From positions 1 through 64,000 of the forward strand of contig NZ_CALUXO010000081.1 of the NCBI RefSeq assembly GCF_944324745.1: DNA of 64,000 bases. Direction: 5' to 3'. Source of the stretch: an uncultured Thomasclavelia sp. GTDB lineage: Bacteria > Bacillota_I > Bacilli_A > Erysipelotrichales > Coprobacillaceae. Both the position numbers and the translations under genes were made by a program. The number at the start of each line of letters is the position of its first letter. Position 1 is the first letter of the stretch. The notes under the pieces are model-generated. The model saw only the letters and a list, made by a program, of their open reading frames with translations. It searched no databases and had not been told where the DNA came from. Below are positions 17,969-21,583 of this stretch, piece after piece.

Positions 17969-19870
17969 ATGATTTATGAATTAACTAAAAGAAAAATTAA
18001 ATATGTTAAATTAGTCACGGCCTTAATTGTTGTGGCAATTATTTTAAAAATTGGTTATATTCAAATAATCGATCGTGTTAATATTTATAATCGAGCGGTT
18101 GATTTATGGCAGCGCAGTTTTCCAGTAGAAGCTAACCGTGGTTTGATTGTTGATAGTAATGGCGATGTTTTAGCAACGAATTTGACAACTGCATCGTTAG
18201 TTGTTGTACCTAGTCAAATTAAAGACGTTGTGGCTACAGCTAATAAGCTGGCTGATATTTTAAATGTTGATGTTAAAACACTGCAGGAAAAATTAAGTAA
18301 AAATGTTTCGATTCAGCGAATCTCTCCTGAAGGTAGACAATTAGATGATGAGGTAGCAGCTCGAATTGATCGTTTAAAATTACCAGGAGTATATTTAATC
18401 AAGGATAGCAAGCGTTACTATCCAGGAGGCAGTTATCTAGCTCAAACATTAGGGTTTGTCGGAATTGATAATCAAGGTTTATTAGGATTGGAGTTAAAAT
18501 ATGATAGCTATCTTGATGGCAGTAATGGCAGTATTAACTATTTTATGGATGCTAAAAGTAATCCAATTTCATTATATCCTAGTGTTTATAATGCCCCAAC
18601 TAGTGGTTTTAATCTACAGTTGACAATAGATGGTACTATTCAGGATATTGTTGAAAGAGAGTTAGATAATGCTTATGATACTTATAATCCCGATGGGATT
18701 TGGGCATTAGCGATGGATCCAAATACTGGTAAAATTCTAGCAATGGCCTGTAAACCGGATTTTGATCCTAATGATTACCAAAATGCTGATCCTGATGTCT
18801 ATAATCAAAATATTCCGATCTGGAAAACTTATGAGCCAGGTTCTACTTTTAAAATCATTACTTTTTCTTCTGCTTTAAATGAAAACTTATTCGATATGGA
18901 TAAAGATACTTATTATGACCAAGGATATGAAATTGTATCGGGAGCACGAATCAAGTCATGGAAAAAAGGTGGACATGGCCTGCAGACTTTTCGCGAAGTA
19001 CTACAAAATTCATCCAATCCCGGTTTTGTTGAAATCGGACGTCGTTTAGGTAAAGATAAATTATATAATTATATTCAAGATTTTGGTTTGACGCAGACAA
19101 CTGGAATCGATCTACCAGGCGAATCTAAAGGAATCATGTTTAGTTATGATAATTTTAATGAATTGGAACAGGCGACCGTTGCTTTTGGTCAAGGAATTTC
19201 CATTACACCGATTCAGTTAGTACGTGCTGTCTGTGCTTGTGTTAATGGAGGAACATTATATCAACCCTATATCGTTGATAAAATTATTAATAATTACTCT
19301 AATGATATTATTTACAGTCAAGAACCACAGGCAATTCGTCAGGTAATCAGCGAAGAAACATCCAAAAAAGTCTGTGATGCTTTAGAAACAGTAGTGACCG
19401 ATGGTGGGGGTCGCAATGCTTATATCGATGGTTATCGAATTGGTGGAAAAACGGGAACGGCACAAAAAGCAGTTAACGGTAGTTATATTGATGGAGGTTA
19501 TATTTTATCATTTATTGGGATTGCTCCAATTGATGATCCGCAGATTGTCTTGTATGTTGCGATGGATAATCCTAAAAACTGTGTTCAATATGGTGGTACG
19601 ACCGTTGCGCCAATTGCTCGCAAGATGTTAGTAGATATTTTACCAAGTATGGGGATTGAAAAGGTTACTAGTCAACGGGAAAAAACTTATAATTATTTAG
19701 ATACTAAAATAATAAAGGTTGAAAATTATGTAGGAATGAAAAAATCTGAAGTTTCTAGCAGTGGGTTGCAATTTGAATTTATTGGTGAAGGTGATCAGGT
19801 AATTGATCAATTACCTCGAGTGGGGGAAGTAGTTCCCGAGGGTTCAACGATTGTTTTGATGCTAGGATAG
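17969..19870 (+). CDS. spoVD: SpoVD-like sporulation transpeptidase (class B PBP)
   Basis: 633 residues with one N-terminal membrane segment (about 15-33), a dimerisation domain and a transpeptidase with GSTFK (SxxK), SSNPGF (SxN) and KTGTAQ (KTG). A single C-terminal PASTA domain (about 573-633) ends the protein. Two class B PBPs in tandem, the first with two PASTA and the second with one, is the pbpB-spoVD arrangement of Bacillus. SpoVD makes spore cortex peptidoglycan. GGTGG precedes the ATG. A CATATATT at 17946-17953 resembles a SigE -10, but no matching -35 is seen. A second vegetative FtsI is the alternative. Confidence 0.85.
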   Translation: MIYELTKRKIKYVKLVTALIVVAIILKIGYIQIIDRVNIYNRAVDLWQRSFPVEANRGLIVDSNGDVLATNLTTASLVVVPSQIKDVVATANKLADILNVDVKTLQEKLSKNVSIQRISPEGRQLDDEVAARIDRLKLPGVYLIKDSKRYYPGGSYLAQTLGFVGIDNQGLLGLELKYDSYLDGSNGSINYFMDAKSNPISLYPSVYNAPTSGFNLQLTIDGTIQDIVERELDNAYDTYNPDGIWALAMDPNTGKILAMACKPDFDPNDYQNADPDVYNQNIPIWKTYEPGSTFKIITFSSALNENLFDMDKDTYYDQGYEIVSGARIKSWKKGGHGLQTFREVLQNSSNPGFVEIGRRLGKDKLYNYIQDFGLTQTTGIDLPGESKGIMFSYDNFNELEQATVAFGQGISITPIQLVRAVCACVNGGTLYQPYIVDKIINNYSNDIIYSQEPQAIRQVISEETSKKVCDALETVVTDGGGRNAYIDGYRIGGKTGTAQKAVNGSYIDGGYILSFIGIAPIDDPQIVLYVAMDNPKNCVQYGGTTVAPIARKMLVDILPSMGIEKVTSQREKTYNYLDTKIIKVENYVGMKKSEVSSSGLQFEFIGEGDQVIDQLPRVGEVVPEGSTIVLMLG

Positions 19871-19887
19871 TTAGAATTAAAATTTGC

Positions 19888-19916
19888 TTGAATTTTACAA
19901 TGAATAATGTTAGAGT
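19888..19916 (+). promoter_or_regulatory. Promoter for the RlmD-like gene
   Basis: TTGAAT (19888-19893), 17-nt spacer, TAGAGT (19911-19916) with an extended -10 TG at 19908-19909. Confidence 0.5.
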
Positions 19917-19973
19917 AATAAACGATTTATTTAATGAAAGTCATAGCTTTTAGATAAAAAGGAGATTTGTAGG

Positions 19974-21290
19974 ATGAAAAAAACAATTACAATTAAAAAA
20001 GTTGGAATTAATGGCGAAGGAATTGGTTATTTAGATCGTAAAATCGTTTTTGTTCCCGGGGCAATACCTGGTGAAGAAGTTGTAGTCGATATCAACAAAA
20101 AAAACAAAGGTTATAGTGAAGGTAAATTACTAAAAGTATTACAACCATCACCTAATCGAATCAAAGCACCATGTCATATGTATGAAAATTGCCAGGGATG
20201 TAATTTAATGCATATGAATTATCAAAGTCAATTGCAAGTTAAAAAAGATGCTATTTTAGAATCATTAAAGAAATATACTGAATATAATGTTTCTAAAAAA
20301 ATGTTTTTGGGGGTTTCTGGTGCTAAAGAAACGGAAGGGTATGTTACTAGTGTTAATTTACCAGTAGTAACTTTTAATGAACAGTTGACTTTTGGAATTT
20401 ATCAGCGTGAAAGTAAGTATTTAACGTTGATGACTAGATGTATTAAACATCATCGAATGATTAATCAGTGTTTAGTTAAAATTGAAAAGATTTTAAATCA
20501 AAATAAATGTAAAAGTTATGATGATAAAGCTAAGACCGGATTAAGATTTTTGAAGATGAAGCTAATTGATGGCAAGATTCAAGTGGTCTTTATTACTGGT
20601 CGTGATGGACTTAAAGAAAACATCGTCAATCAAATTAGTCAAATTGATGAAATTGCCGGAATCTTTATGTCAGTCAATACTTCAAGATATCAAAATTTTG
20701 ATGAATCTGGTTATACCAAGTTATATGGCTCTACTCGTTTAGAAATGATCCATGATCAAAAGAAGTATTTAATTGGAATTAAAAGCAAATTACCTGAAAA
20801 TCAGGGAATGATCTGGCAGGAAAATCGAGTTGTTACTAAAATGGTGGAAAATAGTCAAAAAATTATTTCTCTTAACTGTGGTGTCGGATTCTTGGAACTT
20901 AATTTAGATCAAGAAGATGTAGTAGCAATTGATGCAAAAAATTATCACATTGAAGATGCTAAATTGAATGCTAAATATTTAGACCGTAGTAATGTTAAAT
21001 TTGTCTGTGGTCATGTAGATGATAAAGTTGTTAGCTATGCTAAAAAGAAGACTTATGACACATTGATCATCCATGGAGATCGGTTAAAGTTAAGTGATAG
21101 ATTGATTGATACAATTAAGATTGCTAAATTTAAAAATGTGATTTATATAAGTCAATCGCATTCATCACTAGCTAAAGATTTGGCTAAATTAGATAAAAAC
21201 TATGTTATTGATCAAATTGCTGGTTTAGATAGTTCTTGTCATAATACTTATATGACAACGATCGTAAAATTAATAAGAAAAAGTAAATAG
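19974..21290 (+). CDS. RlmD/TrmA-family protein without the catalytic residues (probable pseudoenzyme)
   Basis: 438 residues with the fold order of 23S rRNA uracil-5-methyltransferases: TRAM domain (1-60), iron-sulphur ligands C67, C73, C76 and C156, a central domain, and a C-terminal SAM-methyltransferase-like domain (LNCGVGF at 300-306). The family's catalytic motif (YVSCNP, nucleophile Cys) reads YISQSH, with Q394 at the Cys position. The DPPR substrate motif reads HGDR (367-370), and the general-base Glu near the C-terminus appears to be Thr. So cluster and TRAM parts are kept while catalysis looks lost. RNA binding or a regulatory role is inference. AAAGGAG precedes the ATG. Confidence 0.8.
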   Translation: MKKTITIKKVGINGEGIGYLDRKIVFVPGAIPGEEVVVDINKKNKGYSEGKLLKVLQPSPNRIKAPCHMYENCQGCNLMHMNYQSQLQVKKDAILESLKKYTEYNVSKKMFLGVSGAKETEGYVTSVNLPVVTFNEQLTFGIYQRESKYLTLMTRCIKHHRMINQCLVKIEKILNQNKCKSYDDKAKTGLRFLKMKLIDGKIQVVFITGRDGLKENIVNQISQIDEIAGIFMSVNTSRYQNFDESGYTKLYGSTRLEMIHDQKKYLIGIKSKLPENQGMIWQENRVVTKMVENSQKIISLNCGVGFLELNLDQEDVVAIDAKNYHIEDAKLNAKYLDRSNVKFVCGHVDDKVVSYAKKKTYDTLIIHGDRLKLSDRLIDTIKIAKFKNVIYISQSHSSLAKDLAKLDKNYVIDQIAGLDSSCHNTYMTTIVKLIRKSK

Positions 21291-21301
21291 GAGGATTTAT
21301 T

Positions 21302-21547
21302 ATGGAAATCAAATATCAGCCTCATGGTGTCTGTTCACGTCAAATTTTAATTGATGTTGAAGATGGAATCATCAATAATGTTAAATTCGTTGGTGGGTGT
21401 TCTGGAAACACTCAAGGTGTGGCGGCCCTTTGTCGGGGAATGGATGCTAAAGAAGTTATTGCCAGATTAGAAAATATTCGTTGTGGTAATAAACCAACTA
21501 GCTGTCCGGCCCAATTAGCTAAAGCGTTAAAAGAAAATCTAGGATAG
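21302..21547 (+). CDS. TSCPD-domain protein (TIGR03905 type)
   Basis: 81 residues. The sequence matches the small TSCPD domain: PHGVCSRQI, FVGGCSGNTQGVAALCRGM, IRCGNKPTSCPAQLA. Five Cys are conserved in type, suggesting metal or cluster binding; the domain also occurs at the C-terminus of some class II ribonucleotide reductases. Free-standing copies are unassigned. AGGAGG lies 6 nt before the start, 11 nt after the RlmD-like gene, so they form an operon. The stop codon is inside the terminator hairpin region. Confidence 0.85.
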   Translation: MEIKYQPHGVCSRQILIDVEDGIINNVKFVGGCSGNTQGVAALCRGMDAKEVIARLENIRCGNKPTSCPAQLAKALKENLG

Positions 21548-21583
21548 TGGAAAGCTCTTTTCCACTTCTTTTCATTTTTCCAA
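21547..21583 (+). terminator. Terminator after the TSCPD gene
   Basis: GTGGAAA (21547-21553) with TTTCCAC (21559-21565), 7-bp stem, 5-nt loop, then a T-rich stretch TTCTTTTCATTTTT. Confidence 0.75.

Follow-up and report, generated by a model that had tools for sequence, protein, structure and literature searches.

An RlmD-like protein lacking the main catalytic motifs of m5U methyltransferases is retained throughout the Coprobacillaceae

The closest solved relatives of the protein described here are E. coli RlmD/RumA and S. pneumoniae RlmCD (SP_1029). The active-site residues F281, Q283 and D381 and the general base E443 have been defined in RlmCD, and R127 of this enzyme is pivotal for RNA binding (PMC6235398). 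RumA contacts RNA through Gly89, and S. pneumoniae RlmCD can do without the Fe-S cluster, for which a structural role is documented (PMC5614603). TrmA acts as a chaperone for tRNA, tRNA variants are rescued by inactive Trm2, and one bovine mitochondrial homologue of Trm2 is missing a residue that is key to catalysis (PMC11301382). In this study, we analyzed a 64,000-nucleotide stretch of DNA from an uncultured Thomasclavelia sp. (the window), in which an earlier note had described an RlmD/TrmA-family protein that had lost every catalytic residue. We refer to this protein as pseudo-RlmD.

Architecture and active site of pseudo-RlmD

The pseudo-RlmD gene (P0001) occupies 19974..21290 on the + strand, on which the domains, motifs and downstream features given below also lie, and is an open reading frame of 438 aa, assigned by its TIGR00479 match, AlphaFold2 model and PDB match. 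TIGR00479, the RumA/RlmD equivalog, covers the protein end to end with 202.7 bits against a curated cut-off of 183.55, and the PF05958 methyltransferase domain scores 15.8 bits, below its gathering score of 23. The AlphaFold2 model, built from 41 sequences, has a pLDDT of 93.7 and a pTM of 0.90. Its top PDB match is S. pneumoniae RlmCD (5xj2, TM 0.91/0.88), and the TM to E. coli RumA is 0.83-0.86, query-normalised. The TRAM, central and methyltransferase architecture of COG2265, the RlmD/RumA fold family, is present in the window protein. The TRAM domain (residues 4-53, 19983..20132) matches PF01938 with an E-value of 2.8e-11 and carries I-N-G-E-G-I-G-Y at residues 12-19; I12-G16, Y19 and F26 are invariant in 39/39 orthologues. 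The putative Fe-S ligands C67, C73 and C76 (20172..20201, with G75 between them) and C156 (20439..20441) are Cys in 36/39. The TRAM domain and all four cysteines are thus as the earlier note had described them.

Catalytic motifs were called in an alignment of 39 full-length orthologues, 55 active relatives and 21 RlmCD proteins, in which F281, Q283, D381, the nucleophile Cys and E443 of RlmCD correspond to K272, P274, H367, Q394 and T428 of the window protein. The former nucleophile, now Gln394 (21153..21155), is Cys in 0/39 orthologues compared with 55/55 active relatives and 21/21 RlmCD proteins; the residues found there among the orthologues include D (20), Q (8), S (5), K (3) and I (2). 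The former DPPR motif reads HGDR at 367-370 (21072..21083), and neither of its two prolines is found in any of the 39 orthologues. In the former FxQxN motif, now KLPEN at 272-276 (20787..20801), N276 is retained, and F and Q, both present in 55/55 active relatives, are each found in 0/39 orthologues. SAM motif I persists as the remnant S-L-N-C-G-V-G at 299-305 (20868..20888), with GxG retained and the acid replaced by Ser; position 299 is S in 35/39 orthologues vs E/D in 55/55 active relatives, and the acid is gone in 37/39. The general-base Glu, now Thr428 (21255..21257), is kept in 6/39 orthologues vs 55/55 active relatives. The earlier assignments of Gln394, HGDR and the general-base Thr therefore hold in this multi-group alignment; IWQEN, which had been assigned to the FQVN region, does not, because the alignment places KLPEN there. 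The statement that every catalytic residue is lost is right for the main motifs, but R370, N276, G303/G305 and D320, an acid, are still present. Since these residues and the GxG loop are retained, residual SAM binding is possible.

A catalytic Cys at a shifted position was sought in the aligned orthologues, and no candidate was conserved across the clade. At position 393, 6/9 sequences of the same genus have Cys and the window protein has Ser, and C422 is confined to the genus. Because 393 and 422 vary across the clade, a shifted Cys was ruled out as a general explanation, and the shifted Cys and Glu that the earlier note had named as a refutation did not materialise.

Pseudo-RlmD could instead have acquired a new RNA chemistry, for example through the genus-specific pair C422-H423, which is invariant in 9/9 same-genus sequences, or through an acid at 394, which about half of the members carry (D in 20/39). 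The SAM-fold residues D320 and G305, mostly retained, would also fit such an activity. However, residue 394 is variable (D/Q/S/K/I), C422 is limited to one genus, the uracil-pocket F and Q are gone in all, and so is the motif-I acid in nearly all; we consider a new chemistry very improbable.

Retention, selection and the shift of constraint

A protein search detected a pseudo-RlmD orthologue in 43/43 genomes and 20/20 genera of Coprobacillaceae, including all 9 genomes of the window's genus. The window is placed in this family, as GTDB defines it, by its named relatives Thomasclavelia, Faecalibacillus, Massilimicrobiota, Longibaculum, Eggerthia and Kandleria. The orthologues are distinct from RlmCD, with approximately 25% identity, and their closest relatives outside the family have intact catalytic motifs in 55/55. 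In a phylogenetic tree, the dead proteins and their BrkB fusions formed one clade, with 100/100 support, separate from the active relatives. Because the dead proteins group together with full support, a single ancestral loss of catalysis is the simplest reading. The two earliest-branching orthologues in a quick tree retain the motif-I acid, as expected from a stepwise loss.

The dN/dS was 0.04-0.20 over 13 orthologue pairs, and that of the methyltransferase half was also low (0.05-0.28), with 0.28 in one pair. In one genome (G009, C1:2154633-2155927), the pseudo-RlmD frame is split. As the RlmCD and RnfC frames of this genome are split too, the split points to an assembly (indel) error. Pseudo-RlmD showed neither the disrupted frame nor the lack of selection expected of a pseudogene. 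A decaying gene or a sequencing artefact might explain the faster divergence of the methyltransferase half and the split frame in this one genome, but it has next to no probability in view of the low dN/dS, the frames open across the family and the confident fold. Decay and artefact were ruled out by selection, synteny and fold. The earlier proposal of a maintained pseudoenzyme, rather than a decaying gene, is thus strongly supported by the presence in every genome, by low dN/dS values and by the absence of the nucleophile in all 39 sequences. The checks that the note had suggested gave the same picture, with catalytic losses in orthologues across the family, none of them riddled with stops.

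We compared the conservation of the domains between the dead and active groups. In 95% of pairs within the dead group, conservation is higher in the TRAM/central part than in the methyltransferase domain; in the active groups the order is reversed, and the methyltransferase domain is better conserved in 99% and 94% of pairs. Positions that are near-invariant in active relatives show a mean retention in the orthologues of 99% in TRAM, 87% in the Fe-S/central part and 36% in the methyltransferase domain, the last figure being based on 28 positions conserved in active relatives. In the CxxC register, G75 takes the place of RumA Gly89, and it is Gly in 39/39, including three sequences without the flanking Cys. 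The RlmCD R127 equivalent is R or K in 23/39 overall and V/I in the window's genus, so that the old RNA target is probably not bound there as RlmCD binds it. Residues 1-268 have a net charge of +16 and a pI of 9.4. As this half is basic in active relatives too, the charge is inherited rather than a new specialisation.

The window's genome holds two further COG2265 genes with intact motifs. One encodes an RlmCD-type protein, whose closest solved relative is SP_1029 RlmCD (402 bits), and the other a TRAM-less protein. The earlier note had asked for an active RlmD elsewhere in the genome, and the RlmCD-type gene is such a candidate. Since intact COG2265 genes are present, the inactivity of pseudo-RlmD need not cost the 23S rRNA its m5U marks, and methylation of U747/U1939 would presumably be left to the RlmCD-type gene. 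The same coexistence would allow pseudo-RlmD to act as a prozyme-like dead partner, which binds the active RlmCD paralogue and modulates it, or competes with it for rRNA. Prozymes have precedents in other families (PMC5201418), but the two genes are unlinked and we regard this arrangement as improbable. In four intact relatives, an RlmA-type (23S rRNA G745/G748) methyltransferase gene lies just upstream (L100:9225-9989, L103, L136 and L146:9225-9992), which hints that the live paralogue may act near helix 35.

Gene neighbourhood, iron-sulphur cysteines and BrkB linkage

A 4-Cys TSCPD protein (TIGR03905, 21302..21547) is encoded 11 nt downstream of pseudo-RlmD. A terminator-like hairpin (21546..21566) overlaps its stop; two such hairpins were found vs 0.7 expected in shuffles. 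The two genes probably form a unit that ends at the hairpin. The gap and the hairpin make the previously proposed TSCPD operon plausible, but the pairing is found only in part of the family, in Thomasclavelia and Faecalibacillus. The claim that the gene has its own promoter was unsupported, as promoter-like matches showed no excess (9 vs 14.1 in shuffles). BrkB and CorC are wider neighbours across the family than TSCPD, and the usual order elsewhere is CorC, BrkB and pseudo-RlmD, with the rnf operon often coming next. Unlike in these relatives, no CorC/CBS transporter gene lies directly upstream in the window (19870-19974), where a PBP gene is found instead. In a large part of Coprobacillaceae, the rnf electron-transport operon directly follows pseudo-RlmD, as at L080:11377-16861 and at L082-L084, L086 and L093. 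A search for RnfC in the window's genome gave no match above the cut-off.

All four Fe-S cysteines are absent together in 3/39 orthologues, which form one clade (Kandleria, RUG246 and G027; L099/L064, L095/L066 and L063), and the RlmCD proteins of this clade retain CxxC. This joint loss fits a genuine cluster, but it also shows that pseudo-RlmD is able to dispense with one. An iron-poor lifestyle as the cause of the loss in Kandleria is unsupported, because RlmCD there retains its motif. A link between the cysteines and Rnf is not diagnostic either: the Cys-less clade has no Rnf, but the same is true of Cys-bearing genomes, including that of the window.

The earlier note had proposed that the protein senses oxygen or iron. 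A sensor that controls RNA through its cluster would account for the retention of the four Cys in 36/39 despite lost catalysis, and it draws on the Rnf operon adjoining in 8/25 named loci and on the 4-Cys TSCPD neighbour in the window. However, the ligands are ancestral, the documented role of the cluster is structural (PMC5614603) and it is dispensable in RlmCD, and neither an Rnf neighbour in the window nor RnfC in its genome was detected. Since one clade keeps the gene without any of the four Cys, sensing as the core function is argued against. The sensor idea is thereby weakened, and we now hold it to be quite improbable.

A gene for the membrane protein BrkB/YihY adjoins pseudo-RlmD in 21/43 genomes, in addition to one tandem arrangement (G038) in which the neighbour is a fusion itself. 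It lies directly upstream, and the reading frames commonly overlap. BrkB/YihY-pseudo-RlmD fusions of approximately 700 aa were found in 5 genomes of 3 genera (L060:700-2823, L069:661-2772, L070:694-2775, L071:631-2754 and L072:616-2781), with one origin in the tree. The fused pseudo-RlmD is a second copy, also without the catalytic Cys. In the modelled fusion, a helical N-terminal part runs into TRAM; the pTM is 0.69 and the domain arrangement is unsure. In g18 and g19, BrkB was detected only as a fusion. BrkB and pseudo-RlmD are not neighbours in the genome of the window. The BrkB gene is located elsewhere in this genus, in Faecalibacillus and in two others, and it was not found in G019 (Eggerthia), though pseudo-RlmD is retained there. 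BrkB also adjoins catalytically intact relatives at 10/55 loci, which places the association before the loss of catalysis. A literature search on what BrkB/YihY does yielded no usable information.

The overlapping genes, the fusions of single origin, the fused-only BrkB of g18 and g19 and the helical part leading into TRAM would all be explained if pseudo-RlmD were a subunit that regulates or scaffolds BrkB/YihY, serving as its cytoplasmic domain to gate or localise it, with no further need of RNA. On the other hand, BrkB is distant or was not found in several genera, its link predates the catalytic loss, and TRAM and the RNA-contact Gly are still conserved. We regard a subunit role as possible but unlikely. 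That pseudo-RlmD, as an ancient and family-wide pseudoenzyme, forms a membrane-associated RNA-binding module with BrkB/YihY, to which it is fused in some genera, is doubtful; if true, this would open a first route to the function of the uncharacterised BrkB family.

Proposed function and comparison with known systems

On balance, and with modest confidence, we favour a non-methylating, probably RNA-binding protein that was ancestrally linked to BrkB; RNA binding, as the earlier note had proposed, is plausible. The sequences show a pseudoenzyme of COG2265 that derives from an ancestral third m5U-methyltransferase paralogue, still intact outside the family. Its uracil pocket, nucleophile and SAM acid were lost, on the simplest reading in the Coprobacillaceae ancestor, and TRAM and the Fe-S/central half remained under stronger constraint. 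The basic N-terminal half may grip structured rRNA or tRNA, and pseudo-RlmD could serve as a folding or assembly chaperone, like the catalysis-independent activity of TrmA. By analogy with TrmA/Trm2 (PMC11301382), action on RNA without catalysis is most likely. Gene order and fusion suggest cooperation with BrkB, beside or tethered to which pseudo-RlmD may work in much of the family. Several observations weigh against this explanation: V/I at the R127 equivalent in the window's genus, a basic N-terminal half common to active relatives, the non-adjacent BrkB in the window's own genome, and fusions that may partly be chance joinings of overlapping neighbour genes.

A relative of the m5U methyltransferases has thus been retained without catalysis in common gut bacteria of about 20 genera. 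This supports the view that certain RNA-modifying enzymes persist because they bind RNA rather than because of the modification they make. Linkage and fusion to BrkB also give a lead, open to testing, on a membrane family that is widespread but functionally uncharacterised. The protein also exposes a systematic misannotation. TIGR00479 matches 17/26 orthologues as well, at E-values near the cut-off, and this NCBIfam equivalog does not separate dead from live proteins. Because it accepts dead proteins, automatic annotation by TIGR00479 would call the window protein an active RlmD.

Compared with known systems, pseudo-RlmD shares the architecture and fold of E. coli RlmD/RumA and S. pneumoniae RlmCD, and its Fe-S ligand pattern is that of RumA. 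However, its identity to these solved proteins is 18-22%, and the nucleophile Cys, DPPR, the F and Q of FxQxN, the motif-I acid and the general base are all replaced. The intact COG2265 paralogue of Erysipelotrichaceae/Bacilli, which we take to be possibly the B. subtilis YfjO lineage, has the INGEGI(G/A)Y TRAM motif in common with pseudo-RlmD, shows 27-34% identity and sometimes shares the BrkB neighbour (10/55). It differs in that FFQLN, DPPR, SCNP/SCNV and the general-base E are intact in 55/55. The likeness to the TrmA/Trm2/TRMT2 chaperones lies in the proposed catalysis-independent RNA remodelling, but TrmA is itself an active enzyme and is distant in sequence (trmA_only 17.6 bits). Mycoplasma TrmFO-like proteins are likewise paralogues of an m5U enzyme in which the catalytic Cys is replaced (PMC7226160), although they belong to the unrelated flavin/folate family COG1206.
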